Positions 15,972 through 48,685 are shown, counted from the stretch's first letter. The stretch is DNA of 64,000 bases from Gemmatimonadaceae bacterium (GCA_036496605.1 DASXKV010000046.1:1-64000); one strand, 5' to 3'. Made by a program: numbers and translations. Notes: generated from the letters alone by a model not told the origin.

Positions 15972-16101
15972 TTGACACTGCGAGACCGTCGCTCCTAGCT
16001 TCCAACCGCGCACGGTGATTTCTCCCGATTTGACGGGCCGCGCGCCGGGCTCCTGCCAAGACTGGTGCCCGCCAATCCCGTCTAAGTCGTGGCAATGGCC
16101 C
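15972..16101 (+). promoter_or_regulatory. Candidate metK promoter and leader start
   Basis: A perfect TTGACA (15972-15977) is followed after 17-18 bases by CTAGCT/TAGCTT, a weak -10. Initiation near 16008 would give a leader of about 135 nt before metK. The leader contains a nested hairpin: GACGGG (16033-16038) pairs with CCCGTC (16077-16082), and CGGGC pairs with GCCCG inside it. The -35 match is clear; the -10 is poor, so the promoter call is moderate. Confidence 0.45.
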
Positions 16102-16129
16102 CGACGAGAGTCGGGGCTGTTTCTTTTTT
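16098..16129 (+). terminator. Intrinsic terminator inside the metK leader
   Basis: GCCCCGAC (16098-16105), a GAGA tetraloop and GTCGGGGC (16110-16117) form an 8-bp GC-rich stem followed by the U-rich run TGTTTCTTTTTT. It ends only 13 bases before the metK ATG. There is no room for a promoter between terminator and gene, so transcripts must read through it. That placement is typical of attenuation or riboswitch control. An alternative is that it simply terminates upstream transcription and metK depends on leaky read-through. Confidence 0.8.
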
Positions 16130-16142
16130 CTATAGACTTCAA

Positions 16143-17228
16143 ATGAGCAACTACATCTTCACCTCCGAGTCGGTCAGCGAAGGCCACCCGGACAAGGTTT
16201 GCGATTACATCGCCGACTCCATTCTCGACGCACATATCACCGCGGATCCACGCAGCCGCGTTGCATGCGAAGTCCTGTGCAAGAGCGGACAGGTCGTCCT
16301 CGCGGGGGAGATCACCTCGAGCGCGTCGGTGGATTACGAGAAGATCGCTCGTGACGCGATTCGCGAGATCGGGTACGTCGATCCTAACGAGCCATTCAAT
16401 GCCGGCGGCGTACAGGTCACGCAATTCATTTCGCGGCAGTCACCCGACATCGCGATGGGTGTCGACACGGGCGGCGCGGGCGATCAGGGCCTCATGTTCG
16501 GCTTCGCGACGGACGAGACGTCGGAGCTGATGCCGCTGCCCGTGCAACTCGCGCACAAACTCTCGCATCGCCTCGCGGTCGCGCGGAAGCGCGGTGAGCG
16601 CGACTGGCTTCGCCCCGACGCAAAGACACAGGTGTCGGTTCTGTACGAGGATCACCTGCCAGTGCGAGTGACGACGGTGCTCGTGTCGACGCAGCACACT
16701 GCCGACGTGTCGCAGCAGGAGATTCGTGATTACGTCTCCGGCTGCGTCTGTCCCGAGGTCCTTGGCAGTTGGTTCGATCCGAGCGTCGAAGTGCTCGTGA
16801 ATCCGACTGGCCAGTTCATCGAGGGTGGTCCGTCGGCCGACTGCGGCGTCACGGGCCGGAAGATCATCGTCGACACGTACGGAGGCATGGGTCGTCACGG
16901 CGGCGGCGCGTTCAGCGGGAAGGACCCGAGCAAGGTCGACCGCAGCGGCGCGTACTTCGGTCGTTTTGTTGCACGCCAGGTAGTGAAGCAGGGGATCGCA
17001 AAGCGCGCCGAGGTGCAGGTGGCGTACGCGATCGGCCGCGCCGAGCCGGTATCGGTTCGCGTCGACACCTTCGGCACCGGCGATTGGCGTGCGGCGGAGC
17101 AACTGGTTCAGACGTTCGACTTCCGTCCGTCAGCGATGATCGAGAGGCTGCAGCTGCGCCAGCCGATGTACAAGCAGACGACGAATTACGGTCACTTCGG
17201 GCGGCAGGGATTGGCCTGGGAAGCCTAA
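16143..17228 (+). CDS. metK: S-adenosylmethionine synthase
   Basis: A 361-residue methionine adenosyltransferase making SAM from methionine and ATP. Family landmarks are all present: SESVSEGHPDKVCDYIAD at the N-terminus (ATP and metal contacts), the signature GAGDQGLMFGFA, the second signature GGGAFSGKDPSKVDRSGAY, and GRKIIVDTYGG. It is slightly shorter than the common 380-400 residues, mostly in the loops after residue 150. ATG 16143 starts the conserved MSNYIFTSES. The short spacer after the leader terminator has no Shine-Dalgarno. SAM from this enzyme would also feed the two methyltransferases of the nearby T6SS locus, though that is general metabolism and not evidence of linkage. Confidence 0.97.
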   Translation: MSNYIFTSESVSEGHPDKVCDYIADSILDAHITADPRSRVACEVLCKSGQVVLAGEITSSASVDYEKIARDAIREIGYVDPNEPFNAGGVQVTQFISRQSPDIAMGVDTGGAGDQGLMFGFATDETSELMPLPVQLAHKLSHRLAVARKRGERDWLRPDAKTQVSVLYEDHLPVRVTTVLVSTQHTADVSQQEIRDYVSGCVCPEVLGSWFDPSVEVLVNPTGQFIEGGPSADCGVTGRKIIVDTYGGMGRHGGGAFSGKDPSKVDRSGAYFGRFVARQVVKQGIAKRAEVQVAYAIGRAEPVSVRVDTFGTGDWRAAEQLVQTFDFRPSAMIERLQLRQPMYKQTTNYGHFGRQGLAWEA

Positions 17229-21639: not shown

Positions 21640-22986
21640 TCAATCTTCGGCGACGATCACCAGTTCCACTTGCGCGTTCGGGATGGCGTCCGGCAGGTAA
21701 ACCCCGATCTCGTGCGTCGTGTTGAGCGTCTCCCAGCACGGTCCCGCGCGGTCGATGGAGAAGTACTGCGTATCGGAGCGCGGAGCGATCGCGGCCGGCG
21801 GAAACTGAATGTGCTGTATGCGCAGTCCGGGGAATGCGCGGCGCACCAGCTCGAGCGTGAACTTGGCCGAGCACACCTTTGCCAGCTGGGGAACGCGCGC
21901 GGCGAGCTCCACGCCGGTGAGCGACGACCGCACTCCGAGAATCCAGCGCGACCGGCCGAACGCTCGCTGATCGGCAATCGCGCCCGTATGCAGGAAGGCA
22001 GTCGTCGCCTTCAGTTGTACGACGGTTCGCGCCGCAGGAGTCACGACTTCGAGGTTCGCGCGAATATGCTTGTCGAGCGCGTCGAAGGATTCCTGCGGAT
22101 GATCGTGATCGTAGAGCGGCAGCGCCCTCGGGTGCGCATCGAGCGCGAAAGTGCACAGGGCGCCCGCCAGTCGAGAGAGCTCGACATAGAGCTGCTCCGG
22201 ATGGACGCGCTTCACCTGAGCGATGTGCCGAAGGGCAGGGAGCGTCGAGTCGATCGCGTGGAGAAGCCAGAAGCTGGCGACTTCCTGCCGCGCAAATTCT
22301 TCCGCGCTGCCGCGGCGGCCACGCGCCATCGAATCGCTCTTGGCGTCTAGAATGTCGATGAGACGTCCGAGTAGATGCATGAGCCGCGTACTCGCGCCGA
22401 CCTGGACGCACGGGGGCACGTACTCAGGGTCGTATATGAAGTGACCGGCGCCATCTCGTTTGACGCGAGCGATCGGAATCGAGACAACGTCATCGAGGGG
22501 CTCGATATCCAGAGCGAGACGCAGATTCTTGCGTCCGATGCTCACCGGTTTTTCGTCGCGGCCGGTGGTGTCATCGAGCATCGGAGCGGCCTCAGCTCGG
22601 TATCGGGCGCCCGAGCCGTTCGTCTCCCCATTCTGACCAAAGTTGGGTTGATCGGCGCGATACGCGGGGATCGTGAGAAGAACGAGGTGTGACTGCTGCG
22701 TCGGGGAGAAGAGCTCGCGGACGTCGAGTGGGCCAGGCGCGGCATCGCTCGCGGGAATGTCGAACGGCAGGCCATCCGGCATCATTCCGCGGGCGTGAAT
22801 GAGGGAAACCGCATCGTTTCGGATTGCTTCGGTGTCGAGCTCGCAGCCAGCCAGCCCATATGGCGCAAAGAAAAGACTCGAGATCGCGAACTGAATCGCG
22901 TCCTCGAAATACCGGCTCTGCGCCTGGAAATGATGCTGGGCCAGGTGCATACCTTCGTTCCATACCACGCGCGAAAGCTGCTTCAT
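21640..22986 (-). CDS. tssK: Type VI secretion baseplate protein TssK (first copy)
   Basis: A 448-residue baseplate connector that binds the sheath/baseplate through its N-terminal shell and the TssL/TssM complex through its C-terminal domain. The N-terminal family pattern is clear: VVWNEGMHLAQHHFQAQSRY, followed by the APYGLAGCELD and MMPDGLPFDIP segments. VIVAED ends the protein. It shares overall layout with the second tssK at 24843-26204 but differs in most residues, so it is an old paralogue and not a recent duplicate. It diverges from the proline-rich gene at 23174, with a shared 187-base promoter region. Confidence 0.94.
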   Translation of the reverse strand: MKQLSRVVWNEGMHLAQHHFQAQSRYFEDAIQFAISSLFFAPYGLAGCELDTEAIRNDAVSLIHARGMMPDGLPFDIPASDAAPGPLDVRELFSPTQQSHLVLLTIPAYRADQPNFGQNGETNGSGARYRAEAAPMLDDTTGRDEKPVSIGRKNLRLALDIEPLDDVVSIPIARVKRDGAGHFIYDPEYVPPCVQVGASTRLMHLLGRLIDILDAKSDSMARGRRGSAEEFARQEVASFWLLHAIDSTLPALRHIAQVKRVHPEQLYVELSRLAGALCTFALDAHPRALPLYDHDHPQESFDALDKHIRANLEVVTPAARTVVQLKATTAFLHTGAIADQRAFGRSRWILGVRSSLTGVELAARVPQLAKVCSAKFTLELVRRAFPGLRIQHIQFPPAAIAPRSDTQYFSIDRAGPCWETLNTTHEIGVYLPDAIPNAQVELVIVAED

Positions 22987-23173: not shown

Positions 23174-24671
23174 ATGACAAGCACTGAATTCGCTGCCAGA
23201 TACCGACTACTGAAGAACGTCGCCACGCGTGGCGCGCGGAGTTTTCTTGCCCAGCAGGTCGCGCTCGGGCGGATGGTCATGGTGCACTATCTGGACTCCG
23301 AGACTCCCGAGCAGCGATCGGCGACGGTCGCTCGTCTGGACTCGCTAAAGCCCCCCGCGCGCGAGAAGATGCTCGAGATCATCGATGTCGACGGCTCGCC
23401 TGTCGCCGTCACGTTGTTCATTAGCTCGTTCGCCGACTTTTCGACCTGGCTCGATCAGGTCAGTGTGCCTGCCACCTCGGTACCTCTCGCGTCACCGGTC
23501 AAGGCCCCCGGTGACTTCACGCGCGCGTTCAACAAGATCGAAACGCCGGCTGCACCGCCGGTCATGGCGCACCGAGTCGAGCACGAGCCCGCGCGAAAAG
23601 CATCGATCCCGGCTGCGCCTTCACCTGCGCCAGCCAGACCAGTACAGAAATCAGCGGGCGAGTTCACGGGCATCTTCGGTAACATGGGCGCCGCGGCTTC
23701 GGCTCCTGCTCCCGCGCACAAGGAGCCAGCCTCGAAGGCCCCATCCCCGGACCAACTGAATTCACCGACACTGATTATCGCCGCACCGAAGCCTTCGCCA
23801 CGTCCGGCGTCTCCGGTCGCGCAGCCTCCGTCTCCGGCCCCAGCTCCGGTTCCGGCGCCGGCTGAGGGCGCGGGATTCACCGCGATCTTCGGTCGTATCG
23901 GTGAGACGCGTCTTCCAGACGAGCTACCAGCGGAAACGCCGAAGCCCTCGGCGCCGGCGGCGGGAGCTGGACGCGTGATGCAACCGGCCCCAAATCCCAC
24001 ATTCGATCGATCGTCGGCACCGCCGGCGAATGCACCACCGCAGCCGAGCGGCGGCGAGTTCACGCAGCTGTTTCAGCGACTGTCGGCGACGACAGCGCCC
24101 TCGTCGGCACCTTCTCCTGCAGCGCCCCAGGCAGCGCCGCCGATGATGCCGCCGCCCGCGTTCGGGTCGCCGGCAAACGCGGCAGGCCCGCTCGATCCAT
24201 CGCCACGGATCGATCTGATGCCACCCGCGATGGCGGCGATCCCGTCCACGATCCTGCCCCCACCTTCGTTAGGTGGCGCCGCGCCGCCGGCGCCTTCCTT
24301 CGGGAGCGTCCTTCCTGCTCCGTCGTTCGGTATGACGCCGCCGCCAAGTTCGCCGACGGCCTCGCGCCTTCCCGACACGCCGGCAATGCCTAACGCGCCG
24401 CCATCGGCGCCTAACGCCCCAATGATACCGCCGTCGCCGTGGGGCGTCGCGCCGGCCGCCGGCATGTTCGGCAGCCCGGCACCGCAGAGCGATTACACAC
24501 GAATAATGGGGCGAGTGGTGGTGCCGCCACCGCCTCCGATCGCGATCCAACCTCCCACCGCGAGCCCGGCCGCGCCGGCTCCGAAGGCGTCGAAGTCGAT
24601 GTTGCCACTCGTCATCGCTTTCAGTGTCGTGATCCTCGCGACGGTCGCGATCGTCGCGTGGATGGTCTTGC

Positions 24672-24682
<11 letters not shown>
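23174..24682 (+). CDS. Proline-rich tail-anchored protein with repeated GEFTxxF-type motifs
   Basis: A 502-residue protein of unknown function. Residues 1-100 form a small alpha/beta domain (YRLLKNVATRGARSFLAQQV, GRMVMVHYLD) that looks like a degenerate kinase N-lobe. Residues 105-475 are an Ala/Pro-rich linker containing a repeated short motif: GDFTRAFNK (113-121), GEFTGIFGN (162-170), GFTAIFGR (234-241), GEFTQLFQR (294-302), with a weaker SDYTRIMGR (439-447). A single membrane helix ends the protein (about 478-497, MLPLVIAFSVVILATVAIVA). The last codons and TAG stop lie inside the flanking TAGAGGG repeat. It sits between the two tssK genes, so a T6SS envelope role is inferred, possibly as a flexible tether whose motifs bind a partner. 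Confidence 0.8.
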
Positions 24683-24842
<160 letters not shown>

Positions 24843-24850
<8 letters not shown>

Positions 24851-26204
24851 TAGCCCCTAGCAACACCACCAGCTCCAGCTGCACGTCCCCAAGTCCCGCC
24901 GGTACGTACGCGGCAATGTTGCGGGCGCGCGAAACGGCCTCCCACTCTGGTCCTGCCTTCTGGAGCAGGAAGTAGTGGTAGTTCAGCTTCACGGGGACGG
25001 CCGTCGGCGGCGTCGGAACGTAGGTGAGCGCGATCCCGGCGAGTGCCTGACGAATGAGGTGATCCAGCTGACCGGCGGCGCTCACCTTCAGCAAACTCGG
25101 TACGCGCTGGACCAGTTCGTTCGCGGGAACCGTGGACGACGACGAGACCGCGAGGAAGATCTGCGGTGCCGCAAGATATTTGTCCTGATCCAGCGCGGCT
25201 GCGTGCACGGACGGCTGCACGACGCGCAGCGGAATCGACACGGTGCTCGCCGGCACGACGGTCTCGAGGAGCTCACGGAGTTGCTCGTCGAGCTTCGTGA
25301 AGCAGGCGCCGAGCTCGTCGTGCTCGTACGCCGGCAGATCGCGCGGATGAATGCGCATCGAGAACGTCGTCAGCGCACCCGCCAGCTCGAGCATCATCTC
25401 GAAGAGCGCGACCGGATGTCCTCGCCGAGTCTCGTAGAGATGCCGCAGCAGCGGGAGATGACTGTTGACCGTATAGAGTAGCCAGAAGCTCGCCACGTCC
25501 GCGATCCCAAAGTCGGCGAGGCTCTGATTCTTCTGACGCCTCATGCCGGAAAGCTGGGTGCTCTTCGCGGACAGGATCTCGATGAGCCGGCGAGCGATCG
25601 CCATGACGTACTCGCTCGCCTCCACGTCTATGAGTGGCGGGACGAACGCCGACGACAACTGGTAATCGCCGGTGGTGGTTCGCGTTAGGCGTGCGGCCCG
25701 AAGTATGGTGCTGCCTTCGGCCGATTCCCCCTCGAAGAGGATGCGGAAGTTCTTCCGGGCAACTTGAATCGGCCGTTCGGATCGCCCGGTCGTCTCGTCG
25801 CGGCGCAGCAGCTCCTCGGCGCGATACCGCGTGTCGCGCTCACGTTGCGCCGCGGAAACGTTGTGTCCACCGTAACGGTATTCAGGGATCGAGAGGTAGA
25901 CGTCGAGCGTTTCCTGATCCTGAGCAAACGCACCCTCGAGCTGCTTTGGAGGCGGCGTCGGGTCCGAGAGGGGCATGTCGAACAGGAGGCCGTCCGGAAA
26001 GATCCCGGAGGCGGACGCGATGGCGAAGCTGCCGCCCGCGAGTGCCTCGCGATCGATCTCCAGCCGGCGAAATCCCCACGGACTGAAAACCAGCGACGAG
26101 AGCTGGAACTCGAGGAGGTCCTCGAGGAATCGGTCCTGGGTCTGGAAGTGCTGAGGACTGAGCAGGACGCCCTTCGTCCAGAGCACGGGCTGCATCTGCC
26201 GCAT
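24843..26204 (-). CDS. tssK: Second TssK-family baseplate protein
   Basis: A 453-residue TssK paralogue. The N-terminus has the family pattern (PVLWTKGVLLSPQHFQTQDR, FSPWGFRRLEIDREAL, GIFPDGLLFDMP). The middle contains the TssK shoulder region with the conserved SIPEYRYGG, and the C-terminal domain that would contact TssL is complete (YVPAGLGDVQLELVVLLGAK). Full length argues against decay. A single locus with two distinct full-length TssK proteins is unusual. The gene diverges from the first methyltransferase gene (142 bases between starts), which groups it with the methyltransferase/TssBC-fusion module. Either the two TssK form mixed assemblies or each serves a separate sheath set. Confidence 0.92.
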
Positions 26205-26214
26205 GGGCCCTAAG

Positions 26215-26290
26215 GTAGGCGAGCGAAGGGGCTCGGTGCTAGAGGCCAGGGGCTAGGGCAACACACCACCAATCACCAACTACCAACCGT
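26215..26290. repeat. Short degenerate heptad-like repeat in the tssK2/methyltransferase gap
   Basis: A G-rich part (GGTGCTAGAGGCCAGGGGCT) is followed by a CCACCAATCACCAACTACC-type part. This is the same style as the larger intergenic arrays but short and degenerate. It lies in a divergent promoter region, so it is not simply a terminator here. Confidence 0.5.
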
Positions 26291-26347
26291 TGCACTTCGA
26301 GCGTCCCGTTCCCCATACTGGCTCCCCGCATTCTCCCCCCAAATCGC

Positions 26348-27901
26348 ATGTGCGCTCACGTCGCCGATTCGCCCTCAGCTGCTCTTCTCGCCAGTTACGA
26401 CGCCGTGCCGTATGGCGGAGGCGCGATTGCGGGGACGCGGCCCGACTACCTCGCCGCGGTCGCTCGCTTCCGCGGACTCTCGACGCCAGACGTTAGGCGG
26501 TGCCGCGTGCTCGACGTCGGCTGCGCCACTGGTGGCAATCTGCTATCGATGGCGCTCGCATTCCCCGAGAGCAACTTCGTGGGCATCGATCTGTCGCCGC
26601 GACAGATCGAGAGCGCGCGAGCCGCGGCGCGAACCATCGGCCTCGAGAACGTTCGCTTCGAGGCGATGAGTGTCATGGATGTCGACGAGGATTTCGGCAC
26701 CTTCGAGTACATCGTGAGCCACGGCGTCTACTCGTGGGTTCCACCCGACGTCCAGCACGCGATTCTGAGTGTTTGCTCACGCAATCTCGTTCCTGACGGC
26801 ATCGCGTACGTCAGCTACAACACATATCCCGGCTGGCACGCGCGTGGGCTCGTGCGCGAGATGATGCTCTTTCATGATCGGCCGCAGCTGAGTCCCTCGG
26901 AACGCGTGCAGCGCGCCCGTGATCTGCTCGAGTCCGTCGCGAAGGCGGTGCCGAAATCCGACGAGGTGTACGCCGCCGTTCTGCAGGAGGAGATTCACAC
27001 GCTCAGCGACGCGAGCGAGTCCTATTTCATGCACGAGGAGCTCGAGTCGGAGAACCATCCAGTCTACTTCATCGATTTCGCGCGTCGCGCGGCGGCGGTC
27101 GGGCTTCAGTACGTCACCGAGGCAACAGCGTCATTGACCGATACGCAACTCAGTCCGGAGCTCCGGGCCAAACTGCGCTCCTGGTCTACCGATAATCTCC
27201 AGTACGAGCAGTACTTCGATTACGTCAGAAATCGCACGTTCCGTCGCTCGGTGCTCTGCCACGCCGGCCGAGGCGTCGAGAGCGAGCCGGTGCCGACGTG
27301 GGTGCCGGAGATGGTCACGCGAGCCCGCTGCTATGTCGACGCGGAGGCACCAGAGGCGAAGCAACCAGGAGTCGAGGTCTTTCGCACGCACGAAGGCGTC
27401 GCTGCAACGATGGCCCATCCGCTCGCGCGCGCTGCATTGCACTCGCTCATCGATGCGCGTCCAAGCGGTTTGTCCTTCGAGGCGCTCGCCGCCCGGACGC
27501 AGGAGCGCATGGAGGGCGGGGACGGGTTTTCCCGCGAGACACTCGCCGACGCGATGCTCCGTTGCGCGCTGGTCCGACTCGTGGACCTAACGATGGCTCC
27601 GACGCCATGCTGCTCGACGCTCAGCCTGCAACCAGTCGCGAGTCCGCTCGCCCGCCTCGAATCGCGCAACGAGTCTCTCGTGACGTCGCTCCTGCACGTG
27701 GCCGTCGAGCTCTCTCCATTCGATCGATTTGTGCTCCAGCAACTGAACGGAACACGAGATCATGGAAAGGTCGTCGACGAAGTCATGGCAGCGATTGCCC
27801 GACGCGAGCTCGATCTGGGACCGGCGGAGCGCGGCGCCGTCGCCTTGGCCGTGGACCACGCGTTTCAGCAATTTCGACTGTCGGGATTACTCATCGCCTA
27901 G
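26348..27901 (+). CDS. SAM-dependent methyltransferase with methyltransferase regulatory domain (PKMT type)
   Basis: A 517-residue class I methyltransferase. Residues 45-180 are the Rossmann fold: motif I VLDVGCATGG (54-63), acidic Asp81 ending strand 2 (VGIDLSPRQ), and GTFEYIVSHGVYSWV as motif IV region. Residues 200-310 match the regulatory domain found in protein lysine methyltransferases such as the rickettsial outer-membrane PKMTs (YFMHEELESENHPVYFIDF, VRNRTFRRSVLCH). The last 150 residues are a winged-helix-like C-terminal domain. No Shine-Dalgarno is seen. The gene is followed 83 bases later by the TssB/C-like fusion. The known family and the position suggest it methylates lysines of a T6SS protein; the target is inferred. 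Confidence 0.88.
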   Translation: MCAHVADSPSAALLASYDAVPYGGGAIAGTRPDYLAAVARFRGLSTPDVRRCRVLDVGCATGGNLLSMALAFPESNFVGIDLSPRQIESARAAARTIGLENVRFEAMSVMDVDEDFGTFEYIVSHGVYSWVPPDVQHAILSVCSRNLVPDGIAYVSYNTYPGWHARGLVREMMLFHDRPQLSPSERVQRARDLLESVAKAVPKSDEVYAAVLQEEIHTLSDASESYFMHEELESENHPVYFIDFARRAAAVGLQYVTEATASLTDTQLSPELRAKLRSWSTDNLQYEQYFDYVRNRTFRRSVLCHAGRGVESEPVPTWVPEMVTRARCYVDAEAPEAKQPGVEVFRTHEGVAATMAHPLARAALHSLIDARPSGLSFEALAARTQERMEGGDGFSRETLADAMLRCALVRLVDLTMAPTPCCSTLSLQPVASPLARLESRNESLVTSLLHVAVELSPFDRFVLQQLNGTRDHGKVVDEVMAAIARRELDLGPAERGAVALAVDHAFQQFRLSGLLIA

Positions 27902-27984
27902 TGTTTCGCTGGTGCGCCGGTTGAAACGGGGTGCTATCGTAGCAGAATGGCTCGTGCAGCATCCTTCGGCCTACGAGGTGTACC

Positions 27985-29439
27985 GTGCAGCCGCCGGCCT
28001 ATGGTCCTTTTCGCATTGCGCTGATCGGTGACTTCAGCGGTCGTGCGAATCGCGGCATTCTCGAAAAGGGGAAGGCGCTCGCTGCGCGTCGATCCGTGCG
28101 CGTGGATCGCGACTCGATCGACGATGCCATCGCGCACTTTGCTCCACGACTGCAACTCAACGTCGGCAGCGAAGGAGACCGTGTCGAGATCGGGTTCACC
28201 GCACTCGACGATTTTCATCCGGATGGTCTCTATGAGCGGCTTCCGCGCTTTCGCGCTCTTCGCGACGCGGGCGCGCGCGCGCTCGCGTCGGCGTCGTTCC
28301 TGTCTTCGCGGATGCCAACGCCGCCGACGCCAGCCGGCGCTCTCGACGCAATTCTTGGCGACGCCCCAATGCCACCCGGCGGTGCCGCCCTCGCAAAGGC
28401 GCCGGCGCGACCAACGCTCCAACCTTCGGACAGCGCCCTGTCGGAGTTTGTCCAACGCGCCGTGGCGCCTCATCTCGTTCGCACTCCGGACCCTACCGCC
28501 CAGGAGATCAAGGCCGGCGTCGACGCCGCGGTGACGGCCGAGTTGCGCGCGATCCTGCATGATGCGGATTATCAGGCGCTCGAGGCTGCATGGCGAGAAG
28601 CCGCCTTCCTCGTTAGGCGACTGGATACCGATTCGGCTCTTCAGGTTCACGTCGTCGATATCTCTCGCGAGGAGCTCGCCGCCGATCTCGCCACGGACGA
28701 CATCGAGCGCTCGGGTCTACATCGTCTCCTCGTCGAGCAGAGCGTCGGAACACCCGGGAGCGATCCGTGGGCGCTGCTCGTCGCTTTGTCCACGTTAGGT
28801 CGCGACGAGAACGATCTCGCGCTCCTCGGCCGTCTGGGACGCGTCGCTCGTGATGCAGGGGCCCCCTTTGTGTCCGGTGGCTCGTCTGCGCTCGTCGGCA
28901 CCGAATCGATCGCGGCGACGCCCGATTGCGATGATTGGATGGCCGAGGCACCGAACGGCTGGCCAGCCCTGCGCGCCTCGAGCATCGCGCCGTACGTGTC
29001 TCTCATCGCACCGCGCATTCTATTGAGGCTTCCGTACGGGAAGCGCACCGACGAATGCGAGCTCATTCAGTTCGAGGAAAACGTGCCGGACACACGTCCC
29101 GAGCACGAGAGTTATCTCTGGGGCAGCGGCGGCGTCGCGGCCGCGTTGCTCATCGGCGAGGGGTTCAGCGAATACGGCTGGAACCTCCGGCCCGGACGCG
29201 AGATCTCGAATCTCCCGCTCCACGTTTATCGCGCCGACGGCGAAACGATCGCGACACCATGCGCGGAGGCGGTGTTGAGTGAGCGCGCCGCGGAACGGCT
29301 GCTGGAAAGCGGACTGTCGCCGCTGCTCACGGTGCGCGACAGCGACGCCGTGATCTTCCCGCGCCTGCAATCGATCGCGGAGCCATTGACTCGGCTGCGC
29401 GGTCGTTGGAACACATCGAACGATGCCGACGGCGACTGA
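27985..29439 (+). CDS. TssB-TssC-like fused sheath protein
   Basis: A 484-residue protein starting at GTG. Residues 1-105 resemble TssB (RIALIGDFSGRANRG aligns with the VGVLGDFSG-type start; IGFTALDDFHPDGLYERLPR with TssB FESLDDFNPE). An Ala/Pro-rich linker follows (106-150). Residues 155-475 are TssC-like (DADYQALEAAWREAAFLVRR corresponds to TssC DFQKLEGTWRGLKYL; APRILLRLPYGKRT to LPRILIRQPYGRD; SYLWGSGGVAAALLIGEGFS to YAWAGASWALASRI). It is shorter than TssC alone plus TssB. Separate tssB and tssC exist downstream, so this is an additional sheath-type subunit. It overlaps the second methyltransferase by 17 bases, tying the two together. It may cap or vary the sheath, or build a separate short tube. 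Confidence 0.87.
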   Translation: MQPPAYGPFRIALIGDFSGRANRGILEKGKALAARRSVRVDRDSIDDAIAHFAPRLQLNVGSEGDRVEIGFTALDDFHPDGLYERLPRFRALRDAGARALASASFLSSRMPTPPTPAGALDAILGDAPMPPGGAALAKAPARPTLQPSDSALSEFVQRAVAPHLVRTPDPTAQEIKAGVDAAVTAELRAILHDADYQALEAAWREAAFLVRRLDTDSALQVHVVDISREELAADLATDDIERSGLHRLLVEQSVGTPGSDPWALLVALSTLGRDENDLALLGRLGRVARDAGAPFVSGGSSALVGTESIAATPDCDDWMAEAPNGWPALRASSIAPYVSLIAPRILLRLPYGKRTDECELIQFEENVPDTRPEHESYLWGSGGVAAALLIGEGFSEYGWNLRPGREISNLPLHVYRADGETIATPCAEAVLSERAAERLLESGLSPLLTVRDSDAVIFPRLQSIAEPLTRLRGRWNTSNDADGD

Positions 29440-31030
29440 CAGCCGTTGGACGTCTGAACCTTTTCGGCCCGGCAATTCGGGCCAGTTCGCGCGCGTCCGC
29501 GAGCTCTTCCTCCGGAGCGGATTCGAGGAGACCCCCGTTTGCGCTCGCGCCGGGGTTGATTCGATTTATGAGTTTCCTCGTCCAGAGGGGCGGAGCGCGT
29601 TCAAGGACGTTTCTGACGCGCAATCGTTGTTCGTGAGGCTCTTCGTGGACGGGGATCGCGTCGCGCGGAGCGTTGCCGAATCGATGCTCTCGCCGGGCGA
29701 CGTCACAGTGCTCGAGGATCTCGGGCTCCTCCACGCCGTGCTCGAGGAGCCTTCACTCTGTACGGCGACGGTCGCGATCTACCCCGTCGAGGAGCTCTAC
29801 ATCGCGTCCGACCGTCGTCACGGCTTCGAGAGCACGCAGGAGGTCCCGCCGTCGGATCTTGTCTTCTCGCCGATGACGCGCGAAACCCAGCGCTTTCTTC
29901 GACTCATGCCGCGCGAGTCGTGCGAGCACCTATTGGATCTGTGCACGGGTACGGGCATCGCGGGACTGGTCGCCGCGGCGCGCTTTGCCCGGCGCGCCAC
30001 GCTCGTCGATATCGCCGAGCGGTCGGTTCGATTCGCCGAATTCAACGTGGCGCTGAACGGTCTCGCGAATGTGCGCGTGCTGCGGGGCGACGTCTACTCC
30101 GCGTTAGGCGACCAGCGCTGCGACGTCATCATCGCGCATCCGCCTTATGTGCCGGCGCTCCAGACAGAATTCGTGTTTCGTGACGCGGGTGAGGACGGCG
30201 AGCAGGTGACACGCCAGATTATCGCAGGGCTAGCCGAGCATCTCACGCCGGGCGGGCAGTTCTTCTGCGAGTGCATGCTCACCGAGCGCGAAGGGGACAC
30301 GCTCGAGCAGCGGCTGCGATCCATGCTTGCCGAGTCGAGCGACGACTTCGACGTCGTTCTGGTTCAGGGACGCGGTCTTGATCCGATGCACTTTTTCGCG
30401 GATCAGGCAAAGGCGGGATATGCGCCGTTCGAACGACTCGCGGAGATGAGTGAGACGCTCGAGCGATTGCGCATTCAGCAGCTGGTGTTCTGCTCGATCC
30501 TTTTCCAGCGTCGGGCGACGGACCGTGCGGTGATTACCACGCGGCGCGCCTTGTCGCCTCTCACCAGCTCGCCCGATCTGCAGTGGGTGCTGCGCTGGAT
30601 GGTCGGTACGGCCAATTGGGACGCGGCGCTGTCCCGCCGGTTGCTGGCGAGTCGTCCGCGCACGCTGCCGCACACCGAGCTGCGATCGCGCTCGATGCTG
30701 CACGATGGCCAGTGGTCGGTGGACGAGTGTCAGTTGGTGACGCTCGCGCCGTTCGCGGTAGAGGCGGCGTGCCCGAACTGGTACGCGACGTTGTTGCAGT
30801 TCTGCGATGGGCGAATGACCGCCCGCGAGCACCTCCAGTACCTGCGGGACACCCGGGCGGTGCCGGATGCGGCGCCGGAGGACATGTTCGCGATGATGAT
30901 TCGCCAGCTGGTGGACGCGGGGTTGATCGAGATCGACGAGTTTCGGCTGCCGGATTCGACGGCAATGCGGGAGAGTGCCGGGGTTCGAGAGCGGCCTACC
31001 GGAAGCCGCCCGGTCGAACGAGCCGACTAG
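29423..31030 (+). CDS. HemK/PrmC-like SAM-dependent methyltransferase with extra domains
   Basis: A 535-residue protein. Residues 1-150 are an alpha-rich N-domain. Residues 165-305 form a class I methyltransferase with motif I LLDLCTGTGIAGL (170-182), acidic Asp196 region (ATLVDIAERS), and motif IV AHPPYVPA (238-245). The latter replaces the Asn of the NPPY motif of HemK/PrmC glutamine and DNA adenine methyltransferases with His; N-to-H variants may alter the substrate. Residues 310-535 include a helical segment and a winged-helix-like end (SMLHDGQWSVDECQLVTL, LLQFCDGRMTAREHLQYL) resembling the C-terminal domain of the first methyltransferase. ATG overlaps the preceding stop by 17 bases. Probable protein methyltransferase for a T6SS component; substrate unknown. 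Confidence 0.85.
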   Translation: MPTATDSRWTSEPFRPGNSGQFARVRELFLRSGFEETPVCARAGVDSIYEFPRPEGRSAFKDVSDAQSLFVRLFVDGDRVARSVAESMLSPGDVTVLEDLGLLHAVLEEPSLCTATVAIYPVEELYIASDRRHGFESTQEVPPSDLVFSPMTRETQRFLRLMPRESCEHLLDLCTGTGIAGLVAAARFARRATLVDIAERSVRFAEFNVALNGLANVRVLRGDVYSALGDQRCDVIIAHPPYVPALQTEFVFRDAGEDGEQVTRQIIAGLAEHLTPGGQFFCECMLTEREGDTLEQRLRSMLAESSDDFDVVLVQGRGLDPMHFFADQAKAGYAPFERLAEMSETLERLRIQQLVFCSILFQRRATDRAVITTRRALSPLTSSPDLQWVLRWMVGTANWDAALSRRLLASRPRTLPHTELRSRSMLHDGQWSVDECQLVTLAPFAVEAACPNWYATLLQFCDGRMTAREHLQYLRDTRAVPDAAPEDMFAMMIRQLVDAGLIEIDEFRLPDSTAMRESAGVRERPTGSRPVERAD

Positions 31031-31113: not shown

Positions 31114-31289
31114 AGGCCCCACTGACGACCGCTTAGTCACCAATGCGGTCGACATCAGTGTGCGGCCGCGCACGATCACCGGCGAGTGTGTTAGCACCCC
31201 TCGATGGCATTACGCGGCGCAGACATCAAGCACGTTGCGCCCCCTCGAGCGTGACGCTGCAACTTTTTTCCCAAGACCCGGAGCACCAT

Positions 31290-31808
31290 ATGGCACGCGA
31301 GGGCACACAGAAAAAGCTGGAGCGTGTCCGGCCGCCACGCGTCAACATCAGCTACGATGTGGAGACCGGCGGCGCGGTCGAGACGAAGGAGCTTCCTTTC
31401 TTGATGGGCGTTCTCGCTGATCTCAGCGGGAATCCGGCGGAGGCACTGCCGCGGCTCAAGGATCGGAAGTTCGTCGAGGTCAACCCGGACAACTTCGATT
31501 CGGTCCTCAAGAGCATGAGGCCGCGCGTCCAGTTCACCGTCGCGAACAAGCTGAACCCGGAGTCGGGCGGGAAGATCGGCGTCGACCTCACGTTCGAGTC
31601 GCTCGACGACTTCAATCCGGAATCAGTGGCAAAGAACGTCGGTCCGCTCAAACAGCTGCTCGAGCTGAGGACTAAGCTTGCGGATCTCCGCGGCAGTCTC
31701 CAGGGCAATGACAAGCTCGAGGAGATTCTTCAGAGTACGCTCAACAACGCCGACGCGATGAAGAAGCTCGAGTCGGAGGTCGGACTCCAGGGAGGCTCCG
31801 ATGCCTGA
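31290..31808 (+). CDS. tssB: Type VI secretion sheath small subunit TssB
   Basis: A 172-residue sheath protomer partner of TssC. Family features: RPPRVNISYDVETGGAVETK, ELPFLMGVLADLSGNPAE, RKFVEVNPDNFDSVLKSM, FESLDDFNPESVAKNVGP, and the C-terminal helix LEEILQSTLNNADAMKKL. ATG 31290 begins the conserved MAREGTQKKLERV; upstream extension in the same frame to 31143 is not TssB-like. The stop overlaps the tssC ATG by 8 bases, typical of this pair. The TssB C-terminal helix can interact with ClpV in some systems. Confidence 0.96.
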   Translation: MAREGTQKKLERVRPPRVNISYDVETGGAVETKELPFLMGVLADLSGNPAEALPRLKDRKFVEVNPDNFDSVLKSMRPRVQFTVANKLNPESGGKIGVDLTFESLDDFNPESVAKNVGPLKQLLELRTKLADLRGSLQGNDKLEEILQSTLNNADAMKKLESEVGLQGGSDA

Positions 31809-33288
31809 GATGCAGGCGCAAGGCCAGCAACAGACCACCTTCGACGCCGCGGCGGAAGGCAGTCTTCTCGACAAAATTGTCGACCAGGGGCGGCTCGGCC
31901 GTGACGCTGCCGCCAAAGAACGGGGCAAGGATCTGGTCAAGAACTTCGTCACCGAGGTGCTCAAGGGCACGGTGACGATCGCCGCCGATACGGAGGCGAT
32001 GATCAACGCCCGCATTGCGCAGATCGACGACCTGATCTCGACGCAGCTCAACGAGGTCATGCACCACCCCGATTTTCAGAAGCTGGAAGGGACGTGGCGC
32101 GGTCTCAAGTACCTGCTCGGCAATACCGAGACGGGCGAGAAGCTGAAGATCAAGGTCTTCAACGTCTCGAAGAAGGATCTGCTCAAGGACCTCCAGAAGG
32201 CGCCGGAGTTCGATCAGAGCGCGCTCTTCAAGAAGGTCTACGAGGAGGAGTTCGGCGTGTTCGGCGGCACGCCCTTCGGTGCGCTCGTCGGAGATTACGA
32301 GTTTGGTAGGGGCGGGCAGGACGTGGAGCTGTTGGAGAAGATCTCGCAGGTGGCGGCGGCGGCGCACGCGCCATTCATCGCCAATACCAATCCCGACATG
32401 TTCAACATGGAGAGCTACACCCAGTTGGACGCTCCCCGGGACATGGCGAAGATCTTCGACACGACCGAGTACGCGAAGTGGAAGAGCTTCCGGTCGAGTG
32501 AGGATTCCCGGTACGTCGCCCTCACCCTGCCGCGCATCCTGATTCGCCAGCCCTACGGCCGCGACACGGTGCCGGTGGAGGACTTCGATTTCGAGGAGAA
32601 GGTCGACGGCACGGATCACTCGAAGTACGCCTGGGCCGGTGCGTCGTGGGCGCTCGCGTCGCGCATTACGCAGTCGTTCGCGCTCTACGGCTGGTGCGCC
32701 ACGATCCGTGGGGTGGAGAGCGGCGGCCTCGTCGAGGGGCTGCCTGTCCACAACTTCAAGACGGAGTCGGGCGACGTCGCCATGAAGTGCCCGACGGAGT
32801 CTCCGATCTCCGATCGTCGCGAGAAGGAGCTGGCCGATCTTGGCTTCGTTCCGCTCGTGCACTGCAAGGGAACGGACTACGCCGCCTTCTTCAGCGTGCA
32901 GTCGGCGCAGAAGGCGAAGACCTACGACTCCGACGCGGCAACGGCCAACGCGCGCATCTCGGCGCAGCTGCCGTACATCTTCGCCGTGTCTCGGTTCGCG
33001 CACTATCTGAAGGCGATGATGCGCGACAAGATCGGCGGCTACACGTCGCGGTCCGAAGTCGAGCGTTTCCTCAACAACTGGATCAACAACTACACGGTAG
33101 CGAACGACGACGTCGGCTTCGAGATGAAGGCAAAGAATCCGCTGAAGGAAGCGCGCATCGAGGTGGTGGAGATTCCCGGGAAACCGGGCTGCTACCGCGC
33201 GGTGGCGTTCCTCCGGCCGCACTTCCAGCTGGACGAGCTGACGATGTCGATGCGTCTGGTCGCCGATCTGCCGGCACCAGCGAAGTAG
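31801..33288 (+). CDS. tssC: Type VI secretion sheath large subunit TssC
   Basis: A 495-residue contractile-sheath protein of normal length. Landmarks: AEGSLLDKIVDQGRLG near the start, the EAMINARIAQIDDLISTQLN helix, DFQKLEGTWRGLKYL, YEFGRGGQDVELLEKISQ, TLPRILIRQPYGRDT, and the C-terminal EVVEIPGKPGCYRAVAFLRP and HFQLDELTMSMRLVA. Together with TssB it forms helical rings around the Hcp tube; contraction drives the tube out. The gene overlaps tssB by 8 bases. Expression is likely matched with hcp, which starts 171 bases downstream. Confidence 0.97.
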   Translation: MPEMQAQGQQQTTFDAAAEGSLLDKIVDQGRLGRDAAAKERGKDLVKNFVTEVLKGTVTIAADTEAMINARIAQIDDLISTQLNEVMHHPDFQKLEGTWRGLKYLLGNTETGEKLKIKVFNVSKKDLLKDLQKAPEFDQSALFKKVYEEEFGVFGGTPFGALVGDYEFGRGGQDVELLEKISQVAAAAHAPFIANTNPDMFNMESYTQLDAPRDMAKIFDTTEYAKWKSFRSSEDSRYVALTLPRILIRQPYGRDTVPVEDFDFEEKVDGTDHSKYAWAGASWALASRITQSFALYGWCATIRGVESGGLVEGLPVHNFKTESGDVAMKCPTESPISDRREKELADLGFVPLVHCKGTDYAAFFSVQSAQKAKTYDSDAATANARISAQLPYIFAVSRFAHYLKAMMRDKIGGYTSRSEVERFLNNWINNYTVANDDVGFEMKAKNPLKEARIEVVEIPGKPGCYRAVAFLRPHFQLDELTMSMRLVADLPAPAK

Positions 33289-33459
33289 CAGTCGCTGTCG
33301 CGGTGTGTCACGAGCGCATCACTGAAATTCACAACGCGCTCGTGACCGCCGATACGGCACGCGCGAGGACGCAGTGTTACTGTGTTCGCGCGCAAAGCAC
33401 AGAGGGCCCTCGCGAAGACTCCCGGTTCATCACCTCATCACGTTTGGCGGAGAACTCCC

Positions 33460-33948
33460 ATGGCTTCGGTTGACTATTTCCTCAAGATCGACGGCATTGC
33501 CGGCGAATCTCAGGACCACAAGCATAAGGACGAGATCGAGATTTCGAGCTGGAGCTGGGGTGAGGCGAATTCGGGCTCGCACGCGGTCGGTGCTGGCGGC
33601 GGCGCCGGGAAAGTCCAGATGCAGGACTTCCACTTCACGATGTCCGAGAACAAGGCCTCGCCCCTTCTGATGCTGGCGTGCGCCGGCGGCGATCATATCA
33701 AGAAGGCGCAGCTCACCTGCCGCAAGGCGGGCAAGGATCAGCAGGAGTTCCTCGTCATCAAGTTCTCGGATCTCCTCGTCAGCTCGTATCAGACGGGCGG
33801 TAGCGCGGGCGCCGAGATCATCCCGGTCAATTCGATTTCGCTCAACTTCAGCAAGATCGAATACGAGTATAAGCCACAGAAGGCGGATGGCACGCTCGAT
33901 TCGCCGGCGAAAGCTGGCTGGGACATCAAGGCCAACAAGAAGGTCTGA
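33460..33948 (+). CDS. hcp: Type VI secretion tube protein Hcp (TssD)
   Basis: A 162-residue tube protein that stacks as hexameric rings and carries or caps effectors. Family hallmarks: MASVDYFLKIDGIAGESQDH, EIEISSWSWGEAN, the VQMQDFHFTMSENKASPLLM segment, and the beta strands LISL-type NSISLNFSKIEYEYKPQ. Upstream in-frame ATG 33382 was rejected; ATG 33460 has a TTGGCGGAG Shine-Dalgarno-like region and starts the canonical MA-x-DYFLKIDG. A very stable hairpin lies just after the stop, which would allow hcp to be expressed above the genes downstream. No C-terminal extension effector domain is present. Confidence 0.97.
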   Translation: MASVDYFLKIDGIAGESQDHKHKDEIEISSWSWGEANSGSHAVGAGGGAGKVQMQDFHFTMSENKASPLLMLACAGGDHIKKAQLTCRKAGKDQQEFLVIKFSDLLVSSYQTGGSAGAEIIPVNSISLNFSKIEYEYKPQKADGTLDSPAKAGWDIKANKKV

Positions 33949-34010: not shown

Positions 34011-34124
34011 CCCAGGCTGCTCGCTGGCGCTCGCGCCAAGTCTATTCGAAGTCGCTCGTGCTTCGCACTCGCTCCTGCTCCTTGGCACGCGTAATTAGCT
34101 CCTTCGTTCATGGGTACGACAATG

Positions 34125-34841
34125 ACTCCTCGCGATCTTCTGCAGGCCGGTAGGCTGGACGAAGCCATCGACGCGCTCAGTGCCGAGCTGCGCGACAATC
34201 CCACTGACTCGCGCCGGCGCACGTTCCTCTTCGAGCTCCTCTGCTTCGCCGGCAAGTACGATCGCGCCGAGAAGCAGCTCGACGTCGTCGGCCAGGGAGG
34301 CAAGGAAGCCGAGATGGGCGCGCTCCTCTATCACAGCGCGCTTCACGCGGAACGGCTCCGCCAGCAAATGTTCGAGCAGAACGCCTTCCCGCTCAGCACG
34401 CCTCCAAAGCCAGTTTCGGGAACGCTAAACGGGCAGCCCTTCGAATCGCTCACCGACGCCGATCCTCGCATCGGAGCGCGTCTCGAGCTCTTCGCCGCCG
34501 GCCAGTATACCTGGCTTCCCTTCGAGCACGTCGAAACGGTCCAGATGCTGCCGCCGAAGCGCTTGCGCGACATGCTCTGGGCGCCCGCCATCGTTCGGCC
34601 TAACGAACGGTTCTCTGGCATGGAGATGGGCGAGGTCATTGTTCCGGCGATCGCGCCGCTCACCTGGCGTCACGCGGACGGACCGGTGCGGCTCGGTCGC
34701 GTCACGCAGTGGCAGCTGCTCGACGACGATACCGAAGCACCCATCGGCCAGAAGCTGCTGCTCGTGGACGGCGAGGAGTTTCCGATCCTCGAAGTCCGTG
34801 AGCTGACGATTACGTCATCCGCACCAACCACCGCTGATTGA
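34125..34841 (+). CDS. tagJ: TagJ/ImpE-family T6SS accessory protein
   Basis: A 238-residue ImpE-family protein. The N-terminal 100 residues carry short helical repeats (MTPRDLLQAGRLDEAIDALS, LCFAGKYDRAEKQLDVV), and the C-terminal half has the family core (FPLSTPPKPVSGTLNG, LELFAAGQYTWLPFEHVE, PKRLRDMLWAPAIVR, EVIVPAIAPLTW). TagJ proteins modulate sheath/ClpV interplay by binding TssB in some T6SS. I chose ATG 34125 over 34110 because family members begin directly with the LLxAGxLxxA repeat. It stands between hcp and tssA, whose ATG follows 8 bases after its stop. Confidence 0.85.
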   Translation, partial: TPRDLLQAGRLDEAIDALSAELRDNPTDSRRRTFLFELLCFAGKYDRAEKQLDVVGQGGKEAEMGALLYHSALHAERLRQQMFEQNAFPLSTPPKPVSGTLNGQPFESLTDADPRIGARLELFAAGQYTWLPFEHVETVQMLPPKRLRDMLWAPAIVRPNERFSGMEMGEVIVPAIAPLTWRHADGPVRLGRVTQWQLLDDDTEAPIGQKLLLVDGEEFPILEVRELTITSSAPTTAD

Positions 34842-40161: not shown

Positions 40162-42978
40162 ATGCCCGTCAACCTTCGTGCACTCATCGCCAAGCTCAAC
40201 CCCACGACGCGCGGCGCTGTGGAAGCGGCGGCAGGGCTCTGCCTCTCGCGGACGCATTACGACGTCGAGGTCGAGCACTACCTCGTGAAGCTCCTCGACG
40301 CGACCGACAGCGACTTCGCGTTCATCCTCAAGCAGTACGCGATCGATCGCTCACGTCTCGCATCGGATCTCGCGAAGAGTCTCGACCACCTGAAAACGGG
40401 CAACGCGCGCACGCCGGCGTTCAGCCCGCACCTCGCGCGCATGCTCACCGAAGCGTGGACGCTGGGGTCTGTCGATTACGGCGCGGGACAGGTCCGGACC
40501 GGCCATACTGTGCTGGCCCTCCTGGCCGATGAGGATCTGGGCAGGATGGTGAAAGAGATCAGCCGCGAGTTTACGAAAATCCCCGTCGAGTCGCTGCGAA
40601 AAGACTTGCCGGCGATCACTGCACACTCTTCCGAAGAGGCGTTCACGCAGCGCGCCGCCGCGGCGGAGGAAGGCGCCGCGCCTAACGCGCAGCGCGCCGG
40701 CGGGAAAACGCCGAATCTGGATTCGTACACGGTCAACCTCACCGAACGCGCGAAGCAGGGGAAGATCGATCAGGTGCTCGGCCGGGATTTCGAGATTCGC
40801 CAGGTAATCGACATTCTTCTTCGCCGTCGGCAGAACAATCCCATTCTTGTCGGGGAAGCCGGCGTGGGAAAGACAGCGGTAATAGAAGGCTTTGCGCTGC
40901 GCATCGCCAACGGCGACGTGCCAACGGTGTTGCGCAACGTCACGCTGCGCACGCTCGACCTCGCGCTGCTCCAGGCGGGCGCGGGCGTCAAAGGCGAGTT
41001 CGAGAACCGGTTGAAGGGATTGATCGAGGAGGTGAAGAACTCGCCAACGCCAATCATTCTCTTTATTGATGAGGCGCATACGATGATCGGGGCGGGTGGC
41101 GCCGCGGGCCAGAATGATGCCGCGAACTTGCTCAAGCCCGCCTTGGCGCGCGGCGAGCTGCGGACGCTCGCGGCGACGACCTGGTCAGAGTACAAGAAGT
41201 ACTTCGAGAAGGATCCGGCGCTCGCGCGGCGTTTCCAACTCGTAAAAGTGGAAGAGCCGAGCGAGGAGGTGTGCGCGCTTATGTTGCGCGGCGTCGTGCC
41301 GTCGCTCGAGGCCCATCACACGGTTCGCATTCTCGACGACGGTCTCGAGGCAGCGGTGCGGCTCTCGCACCGGTATCTGCCCGACCGCCAGCTTCCGGAC
41401 AAGGCGGTGAGCGTTCTCGACACGGCGTGCGCGCGGCTCGCGTTAGGCCAGAATACGACACCGCCGGCGATCGAGGCAGCGCAGCGCCGCCTCGAGGATC
41501 TCGCTGTGCAGCGCCGCGTGCTCGAGCGTGAAGCTGCTGTCGGCGCGAACCACGATGAGCGCCTGGCGTCGATCGCGCAGCAGCGCACAAAGACGGAGAA
41601 CGAGCTCGCCGAGCTCAATGCCCGCTGGGAGCAGGAGAAGGGGCTCGTCGAGCGCATTCGTGAGATCCGCGAGCAGCTCGAGCAGCAGGTGACGAAAAAG
41701 CGTCGCGCGTCGGCGCAGATCGCGGCCGTGACGACCGATGGCGCTGCCACGAACGCCGCGGCGGTGAAGGACGCAGAAACGGCGGAAGCCCAGGCGACGG
41801 CGAGCGCCGACGAGCTCCGCGCGGAGCTCGCTGGCCTGACGATGCAGCTCGAGACCGTGCAGGGCGACGCGCCGCTGATGCGCGTTTGTGTGGACGCGTC
41901 TCTTGTTGGTGAAGTCGTGTCGGGGTGGACGGGCGTTCCCGTCGGCAAGATGCTGCGCGACGACCTGAGCATGGTGTTGCAGCTCGAGCGTCACCTCGAG
42001 CAGCGCGTCATCGGTCAGAACCACGCGTTGGAGTACATCAGCCGCCGCGTGCGCACGACGCGCGCGGGGATCGAGGACCCGAACAAGCCGAAGGGCGTGT
42101 TCATGCTCGTCGGCCCATCCGGCGTCGGCAAAACCGAAACGGCATTGGCGATATCGGACCTGCTCTATGGTGGTGAGCAAAACCTCATCACAATAAACAT
42201 GTCCGAATTCCAGGAGGCACACACCGTCTCGACGCTCAAGGGCTCGCCCCCGGGCTATGTGGGATACGGCGAGGGGGGCGTGCTCACCGAAGCCGTTAGG
42301 CGTCGACCGTATGCGGTCGTGCTGCTCGACGAGGTGGAGAAGGCGCACCCCGACGTGCTCGAGCTGTTCTTCCAGGTCTTCGACAAGGGGCGGATGGAGG
42401 ACGGCGAAGGGCGTCAGATCGACTTCAAGAACACCGTGATCATCCTGACGACGAATGCCGGGACGGACACGATCATGAAGCTCACGGCCGATCCCGAGAC
42501 GCTTCCGTCGCACGATGGGCTGGTGAAGGCGCTCAAGCCCGAGCTCGACAAGACATTCAAGCCGGCATTCCTCGGCCGCATGGTCATCATTCCGTACTTC
42601 CCGGTGCGCGACGAGAACATGAAGAGAATCGTCAGGCTCAAGCTCGCGAAGATCCAGAAGCGGATCGAGCAGACGCACCACGTCCGCTTCAGCTTCGACG
42701 AGGCGCTCGTCGACGCCGTTGCCGCCCGCTGCACCGAAGTCGAGAGCGGCGCGCGCAACGTCGACAACATTCTCACGAACACGTTGCTTCCCGAGGTCTC
42801 GGTCCGCATTCTGGAACAGTTGGCTGCTGGAGACGAGATTCTGGCGATCAGCGTTGGCGTCACGGACGACGGCGCGTTTGCCTATCGAGTCGACGGTCGC
42901 GCAGCCGTGGCGACACCGCCGGCCGTCTCGGCTCCATCTTACACGATGCCGGCGGCGGAGCCGACGGTGCAGGCGTGA
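40162..42978 (+). CDS. clpV: Type VI secretion ATPase TssH (ClpV)
   Basis: A 938-residue AAA+ ClpV that disassembles contracted TssBC sheaths. The N-domain (1-160) contains LCLSRTHYDVEVEHYLVKLL. AAA1 has Walker A GEAGVGKTAV, Walker B ILFIDEAHTMIGAGG, and the arginine finger region PALARRFQLVKVEEP. A coiled-coil middle domain follows (about 460-580, long Glu/Arg/Ala helices). AAA2 has GPSGVGKTETALAISDLLYG, NMSEFQEAHTVSTLKGSPPG, VVLLDEVEKAHPDVLELFFQ. Length and order match ClpV proper, not ClpB, supported by context after tssG and before vgrG. The C-terminal tail is Ala/Pro-rich. Confidence 0.97.
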   Translation: MPVNLRALIAKLNPTTRGAVEAAAGLCLSRTHYDVEVEHYLVKLLDATDSDFAFILKQYAIDRSRLASDLAKSLDHLKTGNARTPAFSPHLARMLTEAWTLGSVDYGAGQVRTGHTVLALLADEDLGRMVKEISREFTKIPVESLRKDLPAITAHSSEEAFTQRAAAAEEGAAPNAQRAGGKTPNLDSYTVNLTERAKQGKIDQVLGRDFEIRQVIDILLRRRQNNPILVGEAGVGKTAVIEGFALRIANGDVPTVLRNVTLRTLDLALLQAGAGVKGEFENRLKGLIEEVKNSPTPIILFIDEAHTMIGAGGAAGQNDAANLLKPALARGELRTLAATTWSEYKKYFEKDPALARRFQLVKVEEPSEEVCALMLRGVVPSLEAHHTVRILDDGLEAAVRLSHRYLPDRQLPDKAVSVLDTACARLALGQNTTPPAIEAAQRRLEDLAVQRRVLEREAAVGANHDERLASIAQQRTKTENELAELNARWEQEKGLVERIREIREQLEQQVTKKRRASAQIAAVTTDGAATNAAAVKDAETAEAQATASADELRAELAGLTMQLETVQGDAPLMRVCVDASLVGEVVSGWTGVPVGKMLRDDLSMVLQLERHLEQRVIGQNHALEYISRRVRTTRAGIEDPNKPKGVFMLVGPSGVGKTETALAISDLLYGGEQNLITINMSEFQEAHTVSTLKGSPPGYVGYGEGGVLTEAVRRRPYAVVLLDEVEKAHPDVLELFFQVFDKGRMEDGEGRQIDFKNTVIILTTNAGTDTIMKLTADPETLPSHDGLVKALKPELDKTFKPAFLGRMVIIPYFPVRDENMKRIVRLKLAKIQKRIEQTHHVRFSFDEALVDAVAARCTEVESGARNVDNILTNTLLPEVSVRILEQLAAGDEILAISVGVTDDGAFAYRVDGRAAVATPPAVSAPSYTMPAAEPTVQA

Positions 42979-47590: not shown

Positions 47591-47648
47591 TTTGCTGTCG
47601 CACGCATTAGCCGCGTTGCGAAACATTGGAGTCTTAGGAGGTCTCAAA

Positions 47649-48638: not shown

Positions 48639-48685
48639 TTGCGGAATAACGATTTAATTCGTCGCCAACGGAGTCAGGAATCGCA

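Follow-up and report, generated by a model that had tools for sequence, protein, structure and literature searches.

T6SS sheath assembly and the ClpV-driven recycling of the sheath are known from a few proteobacterial models. In the VipA/VipB structures, the gp25-like domain of TssC contacts Hcp and interlocks adjoining subunits. The ClpV N-domain is bound in V. cholerae through the TssC motif LLDEII, and TssC of the LLDEII type and TagJ have been reported to be mutually exclusive, Solibacter excepted (PMC4239648). A second TssC-like protein, TssC40 of Agrobacterium, is required for Hcp secretion and, unlike TssC41, is not required for TssB stability (PMC3702570). On the enzyme side, AerE methylates a peptide at the side-chain amides of asparagine residues (PMC11285071). 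No description of a family of TssB-TssC fusions, or of methyltransferases belonging to T6SS, was found in the open-access literature searched, of which coverage was incomplete.

The window analysed here, a stretch of 64,000 nucleotides, is part of contig C46 of a 5.97 Mb Gemmatimonadaceae genome, for which the closest homologues with a name come from Gemmatimonadota. Its T6SS locus runs TssM, TssL, TssK1 (minus strand), X502 (plus strand), TssK2 (minus strand), MT1, FUS and MT2, and continues with TssB, TssC, Hcp, TagJ/ImpE, TssA, TssE, TssF, TssG, ClpV and VgrG; DUF2169, an AHH-nuclease-like protein and Imm11 lie 3' of VgrG. TssJ was not found in the locus, which is otherwise a complete T6SS. 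The features on which the argument depends are the following.

21640-22986, minus strand: TssK1 (PF05936, 421.7 bits)
23174-24682, plus strand: X502, between both tssK genes, with a C-terminal hydrophobic helix and repeated GEFTxxF-like motifs
24843-26204, minus strand: TssK2, second baseplate TssK (PF05936, 452.7 bits; TIGR03353)
26348-27901, plus strand: MT1, homologue of PKMT-family protein lysine methyltransferases (PF10119, MethyTransf_Reg; PF21782, PKMT_2nd)
27985-29439, plus strand: FUS, TssB-TssC-like sheath fusion (Pfam/NCBIfam, AF2, Foldseek, tree and motif statistics)
29423-31030, plus strand: MT2, class I SAM methyltransferase with an MTS domain (PF05175)
31143-31808, plus strand: canonical TssB (PF05591), the real start probably near 31290
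31801-33288, plus strand: canonical TssC (PF05943 and PF18945, VipB and VipB_2)
33382-33948, plus strand: Hcp (PF05638)
34110-34841: TagJ/ImpE
40162-42978, plus strand: ClpV (Pfam AAA/ClpB_D2 domains), predicted partner of the LLDxIL motif

The open reading frames that the original prediction had listed are all where it placed them, and its figures of an 83-base gap between MT1 and FUS and a 17-base overlap between FUS and MT2 are exact. As the best explanation of the locus we propose, tentatively and at a little under even chances, that the T6SS is accompanied by two distinct accessories dedicated to it, FUS and MT2, which have become translationally coupled in this lineage. Three further features of the window are noted here. 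The AHH-nuclease-like protein and Imm11 (47580-49246, after VgrG and DUF2169) form a likely effector-immunity pair, as would fit a T6SS directed against bacteria. Next to tssM is a second S-adenosylmethionine synthetase gene (16089-17228; the other genomic copy is on C37); it was rejected as a part of the system after a check of six relatives had not found it next to their T6SS. A link to defence systems was likewise rejected, the sole matches being those of a methyltransferase domain to PADLOC mad2.

FUS begins with a GTG codon and is composed of a TssB/VipA-like part (residues 8-95), a low-complexity linker and a part resembling the middle domain of TssC/VipB (residues 177-464); its matches cover positions 27-116 of VipA and 5-300 of VipB. 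The VipB middle domain is recognized with E=9e-54 (PF05943), while the score against the TssC equivalog TIGR03355, 181.2 bits, is under the cut-off of 271.5. VipB_2, the C-terminal gpW/gp25-like domain, was absent from FUS in the domain search and present in the canonical TssC of the window. The AF2 model of FUS (pLDDT 89.9, pTM 0.87) finds its best Foldseek matches in T6SS TssC sheath chains over the middle domain (5n8n, 5urw, 3j9g), and it superimposes on M. xanthus TssC over 305 columns at 2.5 Å. FUS would thus be a single-chain sheath-like protein that retains only the middle sheath domain, joining a TssB-like half to the TssC middle domain. Lacking the gp25-like domain, it is unlikely to serve as a normal lattice subunit.

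A search of the GTDB collection with one peptide pattern returned 126 relatives of FUS, of which 80 were kept. The family spans at least six phyla (Gemmatimonadota, Acidobacteriota, Desulfobacterota/Myxococcota, Planctomycetota, Verrucomicrobiota and Proteobacteria), and nine columns are invariant in an alignment of 76 rows. The tree built from the shared domain, for which the tool raised some long-branch warnings, separates FUS from canonical TssC, including rhizobial ImpD, by a branch with SH-aLRT 100; the FUS branches are longer than those of TssC. The association with T6SS, asserted by the original prediction for this locus, is supported by co-occurrence in other genomes. TssK was present in 50 of 50 FUS-bearing genomes tested, and in a sample of 298 Gemmatimonadota genomes FUS occurs in 12 of the 41 that have a clear T6SS, as judged by TssK, versus none of the 257 T6SS-negative ones (p about 1e-11, a value that ignores phylogenetic dependence). 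Four further genomes of the phylum with weak TssK matches only were kept outside the 41. FUS is an orphan gene in several lineages, where it sits beside housekeeping genes away from the T6SS cluster. One genome (G052) has kept a C-terminal remnant of FUS beside MT2. In another (G159), the T6SS locus has MT2 without FUS, and a FUS-like match at C3:344416-345585 falls inside an open frame of 912 residues, possibly a divergent, extended FUS.

The linker of FUS carries a recurrent motif. The pattern hydrophobic-D-x-hydrophobic-hydrophobic (for example LLDQIL or LLDQIV) was found in 47 of the 76 FUS linkers, compared with 2.7 expected by shuffling, and is missing from the other 29. The linker in the window has ALDAILGD at about residues 119-126, in which ALDAIL is a weaker form of the motif. 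A FUS encoded on a plasmid of Leisingera aquaemixtae (L126:12132-15749) has an acidic N-terminal extension of 600 residues with 14 copies of LDx[LI][LI], where 0.5 would be expected; the possibility that this extension is a fused methyltransferase was rejected, as it consists of acidic repeats and no enzyme. The LLDxIL-type motif suggests ClpV as the partner of FUS, and we infer such binding from the linker sequence. The canonical TssC of the window also has an N-terminal ClpV-docking-type motif, SLLDKIV. It is noted that a TssC with LLDKIV (31801-33288) and a TagJ/ImpE (34110-34841) co-occur in this window.

A chain that has only the middle domain would be expected not to lengthen the lattice, which leaves an end of the sheath or free subunits as the most likely sites of FUS action. 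By engaging ClpV through the LLDxIL motif of its linker, FUS may regulate the assembly, length or recycling of the sheath. A narrower alternative makes FUS a structural part of the sheath end whose inability to extend the lattice is put to use, as a terminator or cap, by itself or together with TssA, or as a starter near the baseplate, with ClpV serving only to remove it after contraction. The middle-domain-only architecture, the retained ClpV-type motif and the strict co-occurrence with T6SS would all fit such a part. However, FUS is found in only 12 of the 41 T6SS-positive Gemmatimonadota, which means that it is no obligate part; it also evolves faster than TssC, as seen in its longer branches, and often lies away from the T6SS cluster. 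We consider this alternative rather unlikely, though it survives better than the others discussed below.

The second accessory, MT2, differs from the enzyme that had been predicted. It had been taken, like MT1, for a PKMT-type methyltransferase with a regulatory domain, but it matches neither PF10119 nor PF21782 and was rejected as a PKMT, being a different type of enzyme; by fold, PKMT1 ranks only 25th among the matches to its model. MT2 has extra domains at both its N- and C-termini, and its motif IV is HPPY (H239-Y242), invariant in all 19 aligned MT2 sequences. The closest match to the AF2 model (pLDDT 88.4) in Foldseek is AerE (E=3e-18, TM 0.72 by target length), and GenN is matched too. 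His239 of MT2 aligns with Asn231 in the NPPF motif of AerE (residue numbering counted by hand). MT2 was also rejected as PrmC itself, because its 75.1 bits against the PrmC equivalog lie far under the cut-off of 199.1. With AerE and then the PrmC/HemK group as the nearest structures, an Asn or Gln side-chain amide is the best guess for the methylated group. MT2 would then be a SAM-dependent N-methyltransferase, with a component of the T6SS as its probable substrate.

Full-length MT2 was found in 16 of the 298 Gemmatimonadota genomes, all of them among the 41 with T6SS and none among the 257 T6SS-negative genomes (p = 8e-16, phylogenetic dependence ignored), and a profile search of 20 T6SS-negative genomes of the family found none. 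For MT2 as for FUS, the predicted tie to T6SS has held up. The two genes also co-vary among the 41 genomes, which divide 9/7/3/22 into those with both, MT2 only, FUS only and neither (p=0.004, again ignoring phylogenetic dependence); one of the three genomes with FUS and no detected MT2 (G036) ends at a contig edge. FUS and MT2 overlap by 17 bases in the window; in G200, G143 and the MAGs of L054 and L062 the shared stretch is 4 bases long and reads ATGA or GTGA, the GTG start in G143 being our own reading. Elsewhere MT2 stands between tssK2 and tssB without FUS (G049, G159), and it adjoins a tssK in the acidobacterial G319 and G329. More distant relatives of MT2 in Acidobacteriota, with the architecture DUF7059-MTS-DUF7782, are located beside FUS or inside the T6SS cluster. 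In most MT2-bearing Gemmatimonadota the gene is apart from the T6SS genes, and the neighbours sampled there are unrelated and include no biosynthetic cluster. Two tandem MT2 genes lie far from the T6SS cluster in one genome (G019, L143:8232-11602).

The retention of MT2 without intact FUS in seven genomes means that FUS is not its only target and makes another T6SS protein the more likely substrate. A residue that tracks the presence of MT2 was sought in TssB, TssC, Hcp, both TssKs, TagJ, TssA, TssF, TssG, TssL, TssM, X502 and ClpV, within-genus pairs included; nothing convincing emerged, the best p of about 4e-4 over thousands of columns being regarded as noise. The best PDB sequence match of MT2 is GenN, a small-molecule enzyme, so that a protein substrate is not assured. 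This match and the patchy distribution of MT2 across T6SS-positive genomes would accord with the view that the substrate of MT2 is outside the apparatus, either a small molecule or a T6SS effector or peptide that is secreted; so would the best fold match, AerE, whose own substrate is a secreted peptide. We judge this view unlikely, since MT2 overlaps a sheath-like gene and not the effector genes, adjoins tssK2 in other genomes and, where it is an orphan, has no biosynthetic cluster among its sampled neighbours. An apparatus protein is retained as the putative target in the reading that we prefer.

The original prediction had combined FUS and MT2 with TssK2 and MT1 into one inserted module of four genes. 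The bond of FUS and MT2 with T6SS stands, and the FUS-MT2 pair is conserved beyond this genome (G200, G143 and two further MAGs); the membership of TssK2, that of MT1 and the notion of a single unit fall away, and the full set does not recur elsewhere, MT1 being absent from all other fusion loci examined. Most of the 41 T6SS-positive Gemmatimonadota have two TssKs, typically about 3 kb apart, and in G019 and G039, which have both TssKs and X502, tssB directly follows tssK2 with no FUS there. TssK2 thus belongs to this type of T6SS, and it was rejected as part of an insertion because a second TssK is normal in the phylum with or without FUS. X502 itself has no Pfam or NCBIfam match. Its homologues occupy the same position in the T6SS of relatives, and those of Gemmatimonadota and Acidobacteriota have 1 to 8 copies of GEFTR[LMI]F-like repeats in a Pro/Ala-rich region; systems with two TssKs may possess in X502 a novel component anchored in the membrane.

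The relationship of MT1 to the PKMTs was correctly predicted. In addition to its two Pfam domains, MT1 matches rickettsial PKMT1 (5dnk) with a phmmer E=1.4e-73 over residues 16-491 (476 residues) and PKMT2 (5doo) with 2.5e-64, a homology that marks it as a putative lysine methyltransferase. MT1 occurs in 3 of the 298 Gemmatimonadota genomes, all T6SS-positive (p=0.002, phylogenetic dependence ignored), and adjoins T6SS genes only in the genome of the window. On this evidence MT1 is a local insertion, a PKMT homologue that would have been recruited beside FUS. A third METHYLTRANSFERASE family, of TPR-fused methyltransferases, lies close to FUS in six loci of several phyla and in several orientations (Geobacter and a MAG related to it, Rubrivivax, Pseudoduganella namucuonensis, one alphaproteobacterium and one Gemmatimonadota); identities between its members are mostly 40-48%, one pair reaching 83%. 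Overall, a methyltransferase adjoins FUS in about 14 of 85 FUS loci. The adjacency comes down to few independent events and is suggestive, not proof.

If the four genes formed one module, both methyltransferases would act, as assembly proceeds, on lysine residues in the sheath, Hcp or the fusion. The adjacency and overlap of the genes, the homology of MT1 to PKMTs and the T6SS-positive status of all three MT1 genomes (p=0.002, with the same limit) speak for it; yet TssK2 is general in this T6SS type, MT1 is beside T6SS genes in this genome only, MT2 is no PKMT, and MT2 is retained where an intact FUS is missing, so that we regard the single module as improbable. Mere hitch-hiking, with FUS as a sheath duplicate in decay and methyltransferases that lie nearby by chance, could draw on the presence of MT1 beside T6SS genes in this genome only, the FUS remnant in G052 and the fast evolution of FUS, but is very improbable given that the FUS family is intact across six phyla or more, has invariant residues and is modelled with a confident fold, and given the co-occurrence of MT2 with T6SS (p = 8e-16, phylogenetic dependence ignored).

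The reading with two T6SS-dedicated accessories starts from gene content, domain loss, motif enrichment, co-occurrence and gene overlap, to which ClpV binding, non-polymerization, a protein substrate and amide chemistry would be added as predictions. The near confinement of the FUS and MT2 families to T6SS carriers suggests an undescribed, methylation-linked control step. It is possible, though we would not expect it, that the full scheme applies, in which MT2 methylates side-chain amides of an apparatus protein, this modification is coupled to a ClpV-binding, non-polymerizing sheath mimic, assembly or recycling is controlled in this way, and methyltransferases have been recruited repeatedly (MT2, the TPR-fused family and the PKMT homologue). 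A widespread single-chain sheath mimic that kept a ClpV-docking-type motif but is without the domain that builds the lattice would represent a new type of regulator. The restriction of a methyltransferase to genomes with T6SS suggests that the machine is under covalent control.

We have compared the products of this locus to the known proteins that they most resemble. MT1 is homologous over nearly its whole length to PKMT1 and PKMT2, the rickettsial lysine methyltransferases of outer-membrane proteins, and differs from them in its position in a T6SS locus. For MT2, the closest solved fold is AerE, which together with PoyE represents the asparagine side-chain N-methyltransferases of proteusin RiPPs, and the sequence relation spans the catalytic domain; in contrast to these enzymes, MT2 has HPPY for NPPF, is longer by an extra C-terminal region and is found in a T6SS, not a RiPP, context. 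With the protein glutamine N5-methyltransferases PrmC/HemK, MT2 shares an MTS-type catalytic domain and an (N/H)PPY-like motif IV, whereas its flanking domains differ, His replaces Asn and its score is 75 versus 199 bits. The DUF7059-MTS-DUF7782 methyltransferases have the architecture of the acidobacterial T6SS-locus relatives that align with MT2. However, MT2 of Gemmatimonadota forms an HPPY subgroup in which the DUF matches are weak or absent, and the aligned acidobacterial relatives have NPPF.

FUS resembles TssB/TssC (VipA/VipB) in its homologous TssB-like and TssC-like parts, its TssC fold and, often, a ClpV-docking-type motif. Unlike them, it is one chain that has no gp25-like domain (VipB_2) and forms a separate clade, its disordered linker replaces the C-terminal part of TssB and the N-terminus of canonical TssC, and it scores under the NCBIfam cut-offs of both families. 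Like FUS, ImpD/TssC40 of rhizobia and Agrobacterium gives a T6SS locus a second TssC-like protein, one that is non-redundant. The identity of FUS with this protein was rejected from the domain content of ImpD and from the tree: ImpD of R. etli has complete VipB and VipB_2 and no VipA part, and it groups with TssC. That a second TssC-like protein can be essential nevertheless has a precedent in ImpD/TssC40, though rhizobial ImpD is a complete TssC.
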